A stretch of DNA of 15,713 nucleotides from an uncultured Actinomycetes bacterium (GTDB taxonomy: Bacteria; Actinomycetota; Actinomycetes; Nanopelagicales; Nanopelagicaceae). Below, one piece after another: positions 10,276-14,924 of the stretch. Both the position numbers and the translations under genes were made by a program. The notes under the pieces are model-generated. The model saw only the letters and a program-made list of their open reading frames with translations. It was not told where the DNA came from and ran no database searches. Each line of letters starts with the position of its first letter. Position 1 is the first letter of the stretch. The stretch lies in NCBI GenBank assembly GCA_903844585.1, contig CAIMUD010000145.1, forward strand, positions 1-15,713. The letters are read 5' to 3'.

Positions 10276-11004
10276 ATGTGTGGCCGCTATGCCTTGTCAG
10301 CATCTGCTGAAGATATAGCGCTGCAATTTGATGCTGAGAAGAAGCCTGACGCATTTCTTCCTGCTCAGTGGAATATTTCACCAACCCAGCCAATTTTAAT
10401 TGTTAGCGGTATTGATACATCAGGAGACGCCAGAACAATTTCGAAAGTCTCTTGGGGTCTAGTGCCAAATTGGAGCGAAGATACCTCGCGTGCATCCAAT
10501 GCGATTAATGCTCGCGTGGAGTCTGTTTCAGAGAAACCAAGTTTTAGATCTGCATTTCGAAAGCGTCGTTGCTTAATCCCAGCTAGCGGATATTTTGAAT
10601 GGGCCACAGAGTTGGGTAAATACAAACCCAAACAACCTTTCTATATCCATAACGAAGATGAGTCCCTACTTGCAATGGCAGGGATTTATGAAGAGTGGAT
10701 TAACCCTGTTACAAGTACTCCACTTACAAGTGCAGCAATCATTACGCGCGAATCTGTTGGAGTTATTGCACCAATTCACCATCGCATGCCAGTTCTGTTA
10801 CCGAAAGATCGCTGGGCTATGTGGCTTTCCACGGATTCACTTAGCGAGAGCAAAGTTCAGGAGTATCTGGCTCTGCTTGAAACCCCAAAGCCAGATGCCG
10901 GGTTGGTTTTTAGGCCGGTCTCTTCGGCGGTCAATAACGCACGAAATATCGGGCCCGAACTCATCGCTGGGATTGAGCTTGGAGAGCCGCAGACGCTCTT
11001 CTAG
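10276..11004 (+). CDS. SOS response-associated peptidase (SRAP; YedK/HMCES homologue)
   Basis: SRAP proteins form a covalent thiazolidine crosslink with abasic sites in single-stranded DNA and protect them during replication. The 242-aa protein begins MCGRY, so removal of Met exposes the catalytic Cys2. Other expected residues are present: N78 and R80 in the NARVE block, E108 in GYFEW, and His168 in HHRMPV. WGLVPNW (60–66) and the closing VNNARN block are also family hallmarks. In many bacteria the gene sits near imuB/dnaE2 or other SOS genes; here the LexA box and dnaE2 follow directly. The LexA box lies downstream of this gene, so the sequence does not show SOS control of SRAP itself. No ribosome-binding site is evident before the ATG. 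Confidence 0.95.
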   Translation: MCGRYALSASAEDIALQFDAEKKPDAFLPAQWNISPTQPILIVSGIDTSGDARTISKVSWGLVPNWSEDTSRASNAINARVESVSEKPSFRSAFRKRRCLIPASGYFEWATELGKYKPKQPFYIHNEDESLLAMAGIYEEWINPVTSTPLTSAAIITRESVGVIAPIHHRMPVLLPKDRWAMWLSTDSLSESKVQEYLALLETPKPDAGLVFRPVSSAVNNARNIGPELIAGIELGEPQTLF

Positions 11005-11024: not shown

Positions 11025-11062
11025 TTGCCTTCTGTCAGGGGCTGTGACTATCTTTCGAACAT
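11025..11062 (+). promoter_or_regulatory. Putative promoter of the DUF6504–dnaE2 operon (leaderless)
   Basis: TTGCCT (11025–11030) and TATCTT (11049–11054) form a -35/-10 pair with an 18-bp spacer. Initiation 7–9 bases after the -10 falls on about 11061–11063, which is the A of the DUF6504 ATG. No Shine-Dalgarno sequence precedes that ATG. No other start is available upstream before an in-frame TGA at 11045, which supports a leaderless transcript. Placement is by eye. Confidence 0.6.
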
Positions 11063-11070
11063 ATGTTCGA
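11055..11070. promoter_or_regulatory. LexA operator (SOS box)
   Basis: TCGAACATATGTTCGA is a perfect 16-bp palindrome. It equals the established actinobacterial/mycobacterial SOS box TCGAAC-N4-GTTCGA in all twelve fixed positions. It starts directly after the -10 hexamer and covers the predicted transcription start and the ATG of DUF6504. LexA bound here would block initiation until RecA-stimulated LexA cleavage. I saw no second copy in the window. Confidence 0.92.
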
Positions 11071-11371
11071 ATACTCAGATCAGGAGCTCGCCCCGCTCTC
11101 CGGAGCCGACGAGGTCGTTGCCCATGAAGGAATTCCGGTCGAGTTCTTTTACAAGGGCCGCGCATTTCATATTCACGCGCTTCTTTCAAAATGGAAAGAG
11201 ACCGCTGAATGGTGGAAGCACATTGGAGAAGGTGATCGCCTGCCATCACTCGGTGAAAAGTTATATTGGAAAGTAGAAGCAGCGCCGGTCGGAACCGTAA
11301 ATACATTTGAGATTGAGTTTGATTTAGCGACAAACTCTTGGCAAATCCGCCCGACATCTCGTGGCCGGTAA
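11063..11371 (+). CDS. DUF6504 family protein, first gene of SOS operon with dnaE2
   Basis: This is a small 102-aa soluble protein. Features are VEFFYKGRAFHIHALLSKW (26–44), the tryptophan-rich EWWKH block and a closing part with YWKVEAA, FEIEFDLATNSWQIRP. This pattern fits the DUF6504 family, which I recall as often encoded beside actinobacterial DNA polymerase Y/ImuB or DnaE2 genes; its function is not established. Its ATG lies inside the LexA box, so the first codons are also the operator. Its last 11 bases overlap the GTG start of dnaE2, so the two are co-transcribed and probably translationally coupled. A role as an accessory factor of translesion synthesis is inferred from position and regulation only. 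Confidence 0.75.
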   Translation: MFEYSDQELAPLSGADEVVAHEGIPVEFFYKGRAFHIHALLSKWKETAEWWKHIGEGDRLPSLGEKLYWKVEAAPVGTVNTFEIEFDLATNSWQIRPTSRGR

Positions 11372-14300
11372 GCAATTTACACACTTGCGGGTTGCAAGTG
11401 GATTTTCATTTAAATTTGGCACCGCTCTTCCAGAGAGCATCATCGTAAAAGCAGCGCGCCTTGGAATGTCATCGATTGCACTTACTGATCGAGAAGGCAT
11501 GTCTGGCGCTATTCGTTTTGCTAAAAGTTGTGAAGAAGCCGGCATCACTCCGATTCTTGGCATCAACTTAAGTTTTATCCAGAAGCGATACCGCGTCACG
11601 CTATTAGCTAAAGCCCACCACCTCTCCTCGCTATACCGGCTTGTCACCGCTATCAATATGGATAATAGCGAAAGCCTGCTAACGCTTGAGCTGCTCAAAA
11701 AGTTTAAGGAATACTCCTCCAACGTTTTAGTTATGCACGGCGCAGAATCTGCAGTGGGTGAAGCAATTCTGCGAAGAAAAGAGAGCGAAGCGCTCGGGAT
11801 GTTAGAGGCAAGTAGTGCGTTTTTTGCCGGTCAATCAATTGAATGCGTAAGCCATCAGAGTAGAGAGGAAGCACTTTTCTCAACACAAAGCGCCGCCCGG
11901 TTACTTGGCTTTGCCAGAAGCCACAACCTAGAAGCGGTATTAACAAATGCGGTTCGCATGCTTGACGCCGAAGATGCGCCCGTTGCCGATGTATTAGATG
12001 CTGCACGCAAACTTGTTGCAATCAACCGTAACAATATTGAGCGCAGTAATTCGGAAGGTTATTTAAAGAGCGCAGAAGAGATGTATGAGATTGCAGATGA
12101 GATTGCTATCGCTGCAGGAGAAAAGAACGGCAATGGCCTACTTGCCACTACTAATAAATGGGCAGAGCTATGTGGACTTTCACCACGTTTGGATGTTGGC
12201 ATTGGAGCAATTCACTTACCCGAGCCACAAGTATTGGGCGCTACCGATAGCCAAGGCCTTGCAGATCAACTACGCCAGCAATGTGAAGCTGGCTTAAGCA
12301 GTAAATACACCGGCGAGCTATCTGTGAAAGCAGCTGCGCGGTTAGAGGAAGAACTCACAGTTATTCGGGGACTTGGTTTTGAATCCTACTTTCTAACCGT
12401 TGCACAGATTGCGCAGAGTGCAAAAAGTAAAGGGATACGCGTTGCTGCCCGGGGTAGCGGGGCAGGTTCGATTGTTTGTTATCTCTTAGGAATCTCTGGA
12501 ATCGAACCAATTAATAACTTCTTACTCATGGAGAGATTTTGTTCACCGCTACGCCGAGATTTACCTGATATCGATATCGACGTTGAATCAGATCGTCGTT
12601 TAGAAATTTATGATGATGTCTTTGCAAAGTACGCAGACCCAGATTGGCAAAGCCCTGGCAATACATCGCGCTGCGCAACCGTTGCGATGGTCGAAACATA
12701 TAAAGCACGTAGCGCAATTCGCGATGTAGGAGCTGCTATTGGGATGTCTCCTATGGAGGTGGATGCACTTGCTAAAGCGCTACCTCGAATTAGATCGAGC
12801 AATATTGCTCGCGCAATCGAAACAATCCCAGAGCTGCAGGGCCTTAATCTCAATTCGGCTCTCATCAAAACAGTTGTACAACTTGCAGCAAAGCTCGATG
12901 GTCTCCCACGCCACCTAGCAATGCACCCATGCGCCATCGCACTCTCTGATAGTTCGCTTCAAGATTTTGCACCTTTGCAGAGAAATGCAAGCGGTTATCC
13001 GATGGTGCAATTTAATAAAGATGATGTAGAAGCGATTGGCTTACTTAAACTTGATGTTCTCGGCGTCCGCATGCAATCTGCTATCTCATTTACTCTTTCT
13101 GAAATTGAGAGAGTCGAAGGGGAGAAAATTGATATCGATGAAATCAACTTTGATGACAAGCTAACTTTTGATCTCATTAAATCCACACGCACGTTAGGTC
13201 TCTTTCAAATTGAGAGTCCAGGCCAGCGCGAACTTGTAGGAAAATTTGCTCCTTCATCATTTAACGATTTAATTATTGGAATCTCACTCTTTCGCCCGGG
13301 GCCAGTTAAAGCCGACATGATCTCGCCATTTCTAAGGACAAGGCATGGCTTTGCACAACGCTCATTTATTCATCAGGATCTTGAGGAGATATTGACTGAG
13401 ACAGAAGGCGTTGTTGTATTCCACGAACAAGTAATTCGTATCATCGCAAAGATGACAGGAGTTACTTATGCAGATGGCGATCAAAAGCGCCGCTTACTTG
13501 GCACAAGAGAAGGCCAACAAGAAGTCTGTGATTGGTTCTACTCACTCGCACTCTCTCGCGGTTATGAAATGGCTACCGTAGATAAAGTCTGGAAAGTCTT
13601 ACGAGATTTTGCATCCTTTGGATTCTGCAAAGCACATGCTGCAGCCTTCGCACTTCCTACTTATCAATCAGGTTGGCTTAAAACTCATCACACCGCTGCA
13701 TTTATCGCAGGAGTACTCACGCATGACCCAGGCATGTACCCAAAGCGTTTGCTCATTGATGAAGCGCGCCAATGGGGGATTGAGATTGCACCGGTAGATG
13801 TAAATAAATCAGAAGCCGTTTACAGAGTTGAAAAGACAAACGCAGTAACCCGCAAGCCATTTCAAGCGGTAAATACAAAAGCATCGGGCGAACTTCTGAC
13901 ACTTCCTGATGCACGTGGGTATGCAATCCGAATGTCCCTTGCAGATATCTCTGGAATATCTGGCGAAGAAGTAAGCAACATAGTCAGCGCCAGACCCTAT
14001 TTAGATCTTGCAGACTTTATCTATCGCTCTAAAGCAAGTGCCCCAACAACCCAAGCCCTTGTAAATATTGGGGCCTTCGATGAAATCTGCGGCGTGGGGA
14101 AAAACGGGGTTAATAGACGCGATCTTTATATACATCTGCAAGAGTTACAGAAAATAAACGGTAATAAAAAGAAGGTTGACTCATCGCAACTCTCTTTTAA
14201 TTTACTCACAAGTGATATTGAAAGCCTTGGCTTGCCAGATATAACGCAAGAAGAACAGCTAAAAAATGAGCTCACCGTCCTTGGCATGGATGTGACAAGC

Positions 14301-14672
14301 CACCTCCTTGCACCTTATGGAGAATTCTTAAACTCAATCGGCGTAACAAAATCTTCTGATCTCATTAAAGCCAGATCAGGTTCTTCTGTTGTTGTAGTAG
14401 GGGTAAAAGTTGCCCTACAAACACCACCTATTCGCACGGGCAAACGCGTTATGTTTCTAACTCTTGATGACGGGCATGGTTGTAACGATCTAACTTTCTT
14501 TGAAAGTGCTCAAGAAAACTTCGCGTATTTAATTAGAAATACGGCGCTAATTCTGGCTCGAGGAGAAATCCGCAGAACAGGCCCTCGTGGTGTATCTATT
14601 CGCGCTACGGGTGCATGGGATTTAAATGATGCTTATTCATCATGGAAAAACGAAATCAAAATTGCCAAGTAG
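11361..14672 (+). CDS. dnaE2: Error-prone DNA polymerase, DnaE2-type alpha subunit
   Basis: DnaE2 is a C-family polymerase used in SOS mutagenesis and lesion bypass. The protein is 1103 aa. The polymerase core is intact: LPDIDIDVESDRR carries the first catalytic aspartates (402–407), LKLDVLG carries the third (D565), and MHPCAIAL, FRPGPV and HEQVIRI are also present. The segment NIERSNSEGYLKSAEEM, the short C-terminus with ELTVLGMDVTSHLLAPY and the terminal OB-fold (VVVVGVKVAL to IRATGAWDL), without the long tau-binding tail, point to DnaE2 and not the replicative DnaE1. The N-terminal PHP domain has lost its metal ligands: HxH is RVA (10–12), the LTDH histidine is Arg, and the TNDVH histidine is Arg. 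The start is GTG at 11361, overlapping DUF6504 by 11 bases. No imuA' or imuB gene is adjacent on either side. Confidence 0.92.
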   Translation: MAGKQFTHLRVASGFSFKFGTALPESIIVKAARLGMSSIALTDREGMSGAIRFAKSCEEAGITPILGINLSFIQKRYRVTLLAKAHHLSSLYRLVTAINMDNSESLLTLELLKKFKEYSSNVLVMHGAESAVGEAILRRKESEALGMLEASSAFFAGQSIECVSHQSREEALFSTQSAARLLGFARSHNLEAVLTNAVRMLDAEDAPVADVLDAARKLVAINRNNIERSNSEGYLKSAEEMYEIADEIAIAAGEKNGNGLLATTNKWAELCGLSPRLDVGIGAIHLPEPQVLGATDSQGLADQLRQQCEAGLSSKYTGELSVKAAARLEEELTVIRGLGFESYFLTVAQIAQSAKSKGIRVAARGSGAGSIVCYLLGISGIEPINNFLLMERFCSPLRRDLPDIDIDVESDRRLEIYDDVFAKYADPDWQSPGNTSRCATVAMVETYKARSAIRDVGAAIGMSPMEVDALAKALPRIRSSNIARAIETIPELQGLNLNSALIKTVVQLAAKLDGLPRHLAMHPCAIALSDSSLQDFAPLQRNASGYPMVQFNKDDVEAIGLLKLDVLGVRMQSAISFTLSEIERVEGEKIDIDEINFDDKLTFDLIKSTRTLGLFQIESPGQRELVGKFAPSSFNDLIIGISLFRPGPVKADMISPFLRTRHGFAQRSFIHQDLEEILTETEGVVVFHEQVIRIIAKMTGVTYADGDQKRRLLGTREGQQEVCDWFYSLALSRGYEMATVDKVWKVLRDFASFGFCKAHAAAFALPTYQSGWLKTHHTAAFIAGVLTHDPGMYPKRLLIDEARQWGIEIAPVDVNKSEAVYRVEKTNAVTRKPFQAVNTKASGELLTLPDARGYAIRMSLADISGISGEEVSNIVSARPYLDLADFIYRSKASAPTTQALVNIGAFDEICGVGKNGVNRRDLYIHLQELQKINGNKKKVDSSQLSFNLLTSDIESLGLPDITQEEQLKNELTVLGMDVTSHLLAPYGEFLNSIGVTKSSDLIKARSGSSVVVVGVKVALQTPPIRTGKRVMFLTLDDGHGCNDLTFFESAQENFAYLIRNTALILARGEIRRTGPRGVSIRATGAWDLNDAYSSWKNEIKIAK

Positions 14673-14690
14673 ACTGCACCTCGGTCATTG
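14670..14690 (+). promoter_or_regulatory. Putative tRNA promoter -10 overlapping the dnaE2 stop
   Basis: The dnaE2 stop codon TAG is the first half of TAGACT (14670–14675), a -10 hexamer like that of mycobacterial rRNA promoters. A start about seven bases later would leave a leader of roughly nine bases before the tRNA. No good -35 is seen 17–18 bp upstream, inside the dnaE2 coding end. Confidence 0.4.
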
Positions 14691-14766
14691 GCCCCCATAG
14701 TCCAATGGCAGAGACAGAGGACTTAAAATCCTTCCAGTGTCGGTTCGAGTCCGACTGGGGGCACCA
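14691..14766 (+). tRNA. tRNA with anticodon UAA (Leu by anticodon), class-I shape, CCA encoded
   Basis: The 76-base gene folds as a cloverleaf. The acceptor stem GCCCCCA pairs with TGGGGGC, followed by A73 and an encoded CCA. The D-arm has a three-pair stem GTC/GAC with AATGGCA in the loop. The anticodon stem GAGGA/TCCTT (one G·U pair) holds the loop CTTAAAA, giving anticodon TAA at 14724–14726. The variable loop is only CCAGT. The T-arm GTCGG-TTCGAGT-CCGAC is perfect. UAA reads the leucine codon UUA, but bacterial tRNA-Leu normally has a long variable arm (class II). Amino-acid identity is therefore uncertain even though the tRNA call itself is firm. Confidence 0.93.
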
Positions 14767-14924
14767 AAAGCAACATATTCAGTTAACTACTTTTAAAATA
14801 ATCTGCACACAAGCAAAGCTTGCGAACCTGCTGACTCTGCCATTGGGGTGACCCCCGGTGTTAAACATTGAGCGTGAAGGGATATGTACTACCAAAATAT
14901 AAATATTTGCTTAATACTTGGTCA
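14767..14924. other. AT-rich spacer after the tRNA with hairpins and inverted D-arm copy
   Basis: This 158-bp gap has no gene that I can support. It contains a small hairpin CAAGC-AAA-GCTTG (14810–14822) and a GGGG-TGA-CCCC hairpin (14845–14855). The 12-base sequence CTCTGCCATTGG (14835–14846) is the exact reverse complement of the tRNA D-arm at 14702–14713. The final 40 bases are AT-rich (TATAAA at 14898–14903) and presumably hold the promoter of the next gene, although no clean -35/-10 pair or ribosome-binding site is visible. Confidence 0.5.
14835..14846 (-). repeat. Inverted copy of the tRNA D-arm
   Basis: CTCTGCCATTGG here is the perfect reverse complement of CCAATGGCAGAG at 14702–14713. 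After one mismatch the match continues for three more bases (CAG), so 15 of 16 positions agree. It reads on the strand opposite to the tRNA. Confidence 0.75.

Follow-up and report, generated by a model that had tools for sequence, protein, structure and literature searches.

Our analyses support a LexA-type operator (SOS box) that carries the start codon of a DUF6504 gene, in a stretch of 15,713 nucleotides from an uncultured actinomycete (hereafter, the window). We consider it most probable, at roughly 0.8, that the site constitutes a composite DNA-damage promoter of a two-gene mutasome-type operon, in which the operator itself would provide the start codon. The basis of this reading is the sequence, its conservation, the linkage between box and reading frame, one gain and one loss of that linkage and the spacing of the promoter elements, from which we infer LexA and PafBC binding, the transcription and translation starts and the operon. 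A first-pass annotation had described the site as an operator on the start codon of a leaderless SOS transcript; the overlap is confirmed as a real observation, and its interpretation is partly supported.

The putative operator, TCGAACATATGTTCGA, was located by reading the sequence and by a box search at positions 11055 to 11070 of the forward strand, on which all the features described below are found. It directly abuts the -10 element TATCTT (11049 to 11054) and contains the DUF6504 ATG (11063 to 11065), both at the positions annotated before. It is the only perfect LexA box of the whole window under the actinobacterial consensus TCGAAC-N4-GTTCGA, used here as stated in the first-pass annotation; by arithmetic, a 12-letter match of this kind is expected by chance about 0.001 times per 15.7 kb. 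Boxes with up to two mismatches amount to three in the window versus 0.64 expected from shuffled sequences, with 8 of 200 shuffles reaching three. The operator extends to an 18-bp palindrome, TTCGAACATATGTTCGAA (11054 to 11071), the first base of which is the final T of the -10 element, and among 83 linked loci (those in which the box carries an in-frame ATG) a T precedes the box in 93% and an A follows it in 95%. An in-frame TGA (11045 to 11047) shuts the frame upstream, and none of the codons between it and the ATG (CTA TCT TTC GAA CAT) is a start codon. The earlier claim that no alternative start exists upstream is therefore correct, and it extends downstream, the ATG at 11063 being the sole in-frame start from the upstream stop to +45. 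The further claim that operator and first codons are the same bases is true of one half of the site: the coding part consists of the right arm (11065 to 11070) and two centre bases only, and spells M-F-(E/D), whereas the left arm (11055 to 11060) lies upstream of the ATG and is noncoding.

The association between box and start codon was examined in 80 loci fetched with interior-peptide patterns, and hence not chosen by their N-terminus; they represent the best 80 of 197 confirmed relatives and are biased towards the closest kin of the window. An in-frame ATG was found under the box in 76 of these 80 (in L077 with one mismatch), so that box and ATG move together when the spacer is aligned across near relatives. 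Three others (L072, L073 and L075) keep the box with an out-of-frame ATCT centre and a start moved downstream. In the remaining one (L069) a run of T stands in place of the left arm and the frame opens TTG TTC GAA, which could reflect either a natural operator loss or an assembly fault. Considering all freshwater-type loci, 83 of 86 ATG-bearing boxes are open and in frame across 26 spacer lengths, and the three exceptions (L191 to L193) all belong to an unlinked clade. This spacer, measured from the ATG to a conserved W..WW motif, is in frame at all of its 26 lengths in the 83 linked loci, a state that is partly implied by the definition of the linked class, the definition-free figure being the 76 of 80 given above. 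Taxonomy labels assign 4 of the 83 to Candidatus Nanopelagicales, while most carry no order and a few are doubtful (e.g. Bifidobacterium). Two additional loci, L145 and L177, were kept as possible independent linked cases, which could be due to chance, in base-conservation, codon and tree counts, and were left out of the phase, alternative-start and RNA-folding counts; for base-conservation and codon counts, two sequence-identical loci of the resulting 85 were merged.

A chance position of the operator at the 5' end of the gene, with the true start elsewhere and the N-terminal MFE as an artefact of frame reading, might explain the overlap, and certain observations are compatible with it. An ATG occurs at the same place in unlinked boxes (20 of 65 outgroup boxes), and in G001, the nearest kin of the window, the identical 16-mer precedes, on another contig, an ORF that we take to be dinB-like without being used as its start (a stop follows after four codons). 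Other in-frame starts are also available in many linked loci: another ATG, GTG or TTG precedes the conserved domain in 47 of 83 and lies upstream in 30, the box ATG being the sole candidate in 25. We nevertheless regard this scenario as unlikely in view of the 83 of 86 ATG-bearing boxes open and in frame over so many spacer lengths, of the unlinked clade, where by contrast all three phases are present and stops occur in the phase of the box, and of the window, where no other start is available as far as +45.

A second set of evidence concerns the relationship between the operator and the protein N-terminus. A protein search with the DUF6504 sequence returned 263 matches, and in an alignment of the window protein with 46 of the 120 listed, M1-F2-E3 was at least 90% conserved in the 47 proteins, followed by residues hypervariable in both sequence and length. 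Such conservation would fit MFE being maintained for protein function, with an operator that coincides with it, yet this is the least probable of the explanations considered here. At codon 2, TTC is used in 83 of 83 linked loci (the rest of the same genes contain 136 TTC and 186 TTT), and at residue 3 (L145 and L177 included) there are 79 E, always encoded by GAA, and 4 D, encoded by GAT. Among conserved residues with degenerate codons, synonymous change is missing at codons 2 and 3 only; all the others at or above 80% conservation, invariant Phe and Glu included, vary synonymously. The use of TTC at codon 2 partly follows from requiring a box, but that of GAA over GAG does not, because the last base of this codon falls beyond the 16-mer, where it brings the palindrome to 18 bp; residue 3, in turn, is restricted to E or D because the first two bases of its codon, GA, are set by the box and the third is not. 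In addition, MFE is absent from the unlinked clade and from the outgroups, many of which begin with M-(T/S)RRYD, and conservation is equally high in the noncoding left arm and in the coding arm, a result partly implied for both by the definition of the box. In an AlphaFold model of the protein (mean pLDDT 74), the first ten residues average 45 and residues 5 to 14 fall below 50; a PDB fold search with the same protein gave no match at E 0.001 or better. A functional MFE motif was accordingly judged unlikely on account of codon invariance, the exchange of E and D and its absence from unlinked and outgroup proteins. We conclude from these codon patterns that the operator would shape the protein by imposing M-F-(E/D), and residues 1 to 3 of the DUF6504 protein seem to be set by the bases common to both. 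The mutual constraint between operator and N-terminus proposed earlier is thus retained as a tie between the two, but one that looks one-directional, from the operator to a poorly modelled protein tail.

Upstream of the -10 element, the window contains a -35-like TTGCCT (11025 to 11030, 18 bp from the -10) and a PafBC/RecA-NDp-like element, TGTCAGGG (11033 to 11040, 8 bp before the -10), which the first-pass annotation overlooked. Together with TATCTT, the latter matches the RecA-NDp pattern TGTCR, 8 bp, TANNNT, whose letters reportedly go back to work by Gamulin in 2004. The TTGC block is conserved in linked loci (83 to 98% per base), usually one base nearer to the -10, and within the 81-locus set, made up of the window and its 80 relatives, 75 of the 77 linked loci carry TGTC-12-TANNNT, which L002 and L080 lack. 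Elsewhere it occurs in 8 of 12 class-wide loci linked by rule, in 3 of 3 and 46 of 79 unlinked loci and in 0 of 11 box-less ones, and all 132 matches show exactly 8 bp from the 8-mer to the -10 even with 7 and 9 allowed. Arranged by start codon, 83 of 89 boxes with an in-frame ATG and 49 of 82 others have it, whereas letter shuffles average 0.3 among the 89 and 0.1 among the 82. The gap between -10 and box in linked loci is 0 bp in 71 and 1 bp in 4 of the 75 matches.

The arrangement has the shape of a RecA-NDp/PafBC promoter, to which PafBC would bind. WYL genes were identified in 14 of 14 relatives' genomes, with a tandem pair resembling pafB/pafC in 13, a count in which other WYL regulators are not distinguished. 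A genome-wide RecA-NDp scan was discarded as a definition of the regulon, with 0 to 9 matches per strand and genome versus 0 to 4 for reversed-pattern controls making it too weak alone. According to the accessible portions of the literature, PafBC activates transcription via RecA-NDp promoters (PMC6789036), involving a -26 motif and sigma adaptation (PMC11804915), and the RecA-NDp-like motif, which resembles that of PafBC, extends to other actinobacteria (PMC8223512).

The spacing of -10 elements in this lineage provides an estimate of leader length. In 400 kb of a relative's genome (G143), 54 of 368 ORFs have a TANNNT that ends 6 bases ahead of their first start, compared with 14 ORFs each at 7 and 8 bases and a background of about 6 at greater distances, and this peak persists when the count is restricted to ATG starts and when TAA/TAG hexamers are excluded. 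Although 43 of the 54 hexamers begin with TAA or TAG, no similar peak exists at 9 or 12 bases; an origin of the peak in in-frame stops, through the rule of taking the first start after a stop, was rejected since TAC/TAT hexamers by themselves account for 11 cases at 6 bases and for about 2 at other distances. At DUF6504, the -10 and the ATG are separated by 8 bases in the window and by 9 in four relatives, and with 8 compared to an optimum of 6 a leader of 0 to 2 nt is therefore expected. On this spacing, A11061, giving a 2-nt leader (5'-AUAUG), is probably the likeliest +1 and would be at least as likely as the strictly leaderless A11063. In mycobacteria, an ATG or GTG at the 5' end is described as necessary and sufficient for leaderless translation, leadered starts requiring a Shine-Dalgarno site (PMC4633059, in excerpt). 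This 5'-end rule favours A11063, or else a tolerance of 2-nt leaders here, and by analogy a 2-nt leader without a Shine-Dalgarno site could be translated poorly. The lexA genes of these relatives offer a parallel, 11 of 14 (L098 to L111) having TANNNT exactly 6 nt before the ATG, with their boxes upstream; this spacing suggests a leaderless lexA transcript in the lineage, as is described for M. tuberculosis.

Transcription might instead begin upstream, giving an ordinary leadered messenger with the flush promoter inactive, a scenario for which the gene order leaves some room. The gene for an SOS-response-associated peptidase (SRAP; 10276 to 11004) is co-directional and ends 58 nt before the ATG, making read-through possible, but an SRAP gene occupies this place in 11 of the 77 linked loci whose sequence extends far enough, the window included. 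None of the 83 linked loci shows a Shine-Dalgarno match of four letters or more before the box ATG (the score is 0 in 76 and 3 in 7), and the promoter elements occur at exact spacing. Read-through RNA would also fold the operator into a hairpin in which the G of the AUG is paired; this hairpin appears in 82 of 83 modelled read-through RNAs, as it would for any palindrome, and mean AUG accessibility drops only from 0.75 to 0.67. We consider a leadered transcript of this kind very unlikely. As for the unlinked clade, a Shine-Dalgarno site was considered as its substitute and set aside, its matches being weak (3 to 4 letters), and the regain of a proper site is not claimed.

Under our preferred reading as a composite promoter, the -35-like TTGC, the PafBC-type TGTC element and the TANNNT -10 would together drive transcription into the operator that starts at the -10. 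LexA bound to the operator would cover the start point and block transcription; upon DNA damage, RecA-driven cleavage of LexA would free the operator, and PafBC activated by single-stranded DNA would aid the polymerase. The transcript would then start inside the operator, at A11061 or A11063, with a 2-nt leader or none, and translation would proceed from the operator's own ATG, the right half-site encoding M-F-(E/D). We count against this reading a result from M. tuberculosis, where, in the part of the report available, dnaE2 overexpression persists when RecA is absent and PafBC is silenced (PMC8151990).

The gene that begins in the operator (11063 to 11371) codes for a 102-residue DUF6504 protein with the MFE N-terminus, which scores 40.1 bits against PF20114, above the gathering cut-off of 24.2. 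Its stop is overlapped by the gene of a DnaE-type polymerase (11361 to 14672), and the two presumably form one operon. Since this polymerase falls below the cut-offs of both the error-prone NCBIfam model NF004225 (607 bits, cut-off 939) and the replicative model NF004226 (640 bits, cut-off 1002), it is named DnaE2-like from context only.

Perfect SOS boxes are scarce in the genomes of 18 relatives (0 to 3 per genome), the one at DUF6504 being the only one in 9 of them. A search for lexA identified the gene in 14 of these genomes, each time preceded by a box, and did not find it in the other 4, G001 included. In G015, the genome of L069, neither lexA nor a perfect box was found. Six loci (L241 to L245 and L247) that we presume from their ORFs to be recA-like have the TGTC element as in linked loci and a box 0 to 1 bp after the -10, the conserved part of the RecA-like frame opening well downstream of the box.

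A class-wide draw of 246 genomes across the class of G004 placed the trait in a broader context. PF20114 was present in 102, and the loci of 101 were read (L113 to L213), the remaining genome, G004, being that of the linked locus L008. DUF6504 is preceded by a box, perfect or with a single mismatch, in 91 of these 101 loci; in many other actinomycetes the box stands tens to hundreds of bases before the domain, with an N-terminus of the M-(T/S)RRYD type. Twelve loci were linked by rule, of which 8 were retained: 6 freshwater-type loci, L145 and L177. The other four (L113, L134, L178 and L197) have the box 110 to 182 bases before the domain in outgroup genomes, and were taken as chance, excluded from linked counts and relabelled as unlinked for the tree, yet the promoter-spacing count still includes them, both in its 12 class loci and in its 89 boxes. 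Among freshwater-type loci of this draw, unlinked cases (14) are commoner than linked ones (6). Linked loci are few in the class-wide draw, and the link between box and ATG is therefore a trait of part of one lineage.

The history of the link was reconstructed on a FastTree phylogeny of the DnaE N-terminal part, comprising the 142 loci, out of 182, in which the DnaE alignment covers more than 250 residues; 5 of the 142 lack a box and were not counted for changes. The linked and unlinked states require 4 changes on this tree, in which a freshwater clade with support 100 comprises 79 linked loci, 17 unlinked loci and 1 without a box, and the unlinked loci form a clade of 17 members with support 83, in which the box is retained. 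We read the 4 changes as one probable gain at the base of the freshwater clade, one loss in the 17-member clade and two single cases. The unlinked clade keeps the 12 specific operator bases with a centre of ATCT (12), ACAT (3), ACTT (1) or ACCT (1), the centre in the 83 linked loci being ATAT (62) or AAAT (21).

Leaderless transcripts, joint control of mutasome genes by LexA and PafBC and operators over leaderless promoters are already known; what appears to be new, judging from the literature searched, is an SOS box that carries a start codon and is linked to it across part of one lineage. As in the actinobacterial LexA/RecA regulon, the box follows TCGAAC-N4-GTTCGA and, with at most one mismatch, stands before lexA, recA-like and dinB-like ORFs in relatives, but at DUF6504 it overlaps the start and encodes protein, which it does not do at the recA-like and dinB-like ORFs. 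The mycobacterial imuA'-imuB/dnaE2 cassette resembles our case in the joint control of mutasome genes by LexA and PafBC and in a TGTC element 8 bp before TANNNT; dual control of the mycobacterial mutasome (PMC10421592, citing Adefisayo 2021) and genes bearing both sites (PMC8223512) are mentioned in the passages accessible from those papers. In 33 other actinomycete loci -10 and operator are 7 to 12 bp apart, whereas the two elements typically abut here. Leaderless SOS transcripts have been described in M. tuberculosis for lexA, and for recX from a promoter inside recA (PMC2897130, PMC3062782); in these, the mRNA of a DNA-damage gene starts at the ATG, as the DUF6504 transcript may do, but the portions seen of those sources describe neither an operator that overlaps a start codon nor a link of box and ATG throughout a lineage. 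Similarly, the acuR operator of Rhodobacter lies at a promoter making a leaderless mRNA (PMC3017554), where the inverted repeat overlaps the promoter and the available extract does not describe coding by the operator. Literature searches for a LexA or SOS box on a start codon, and for LexA in Nanopelagic bacteria, gave no such report by title or start of abstract among the matches listed, and DUF6504 was not mentioned in the literature searched, subscription journals being mostly outside it.

The site offers a clean natural case in which a regulatory site and a coding sequence use common bases, with internal controls in the unlinked operators at recA-like and dinB-like ORFs, the clade with a broken link and the genome with half an operator, and it allows asking to what extent a protein can be shaped by an operator and by what route the two become uncoupled again. 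The promoter pattern also suggests that the joint PafBC-LexA mutasome promoter may reach beyond mycobacteria into small-genome freshwater actinobacteria. More tentatively, and with clearly less confidence, the site could be seen as a single element, roughly 40 bp long around a core of 18 bp, that LexA, the ribosome and a PafBC-assisted RNA polymerase would all read and that became fixed as a whole at the root of the lineage, so that the preference of the repressor would dictate the N-terminus. A start inside the palindrome would keep the hairpin out of the mRNA while read-through transcripts would carry it, insulating the mutagenic operon; this insulation from neighbouring genes is speculation.

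On the 3' side of the polymerase gene, a tRNA-like sequence was read by eye at 14690 to 14770 of the window, at a position where many relatives have a Y-family polymerase gene. The Y-family polymerase (PF00817) gave one match in each of 14 genomes; in 11 of them it lies on the strand of DUF6504, about 3.5 to 4.3 kb further downstream, in G104 at about 5.7 kb and in G143 and G173 far away.
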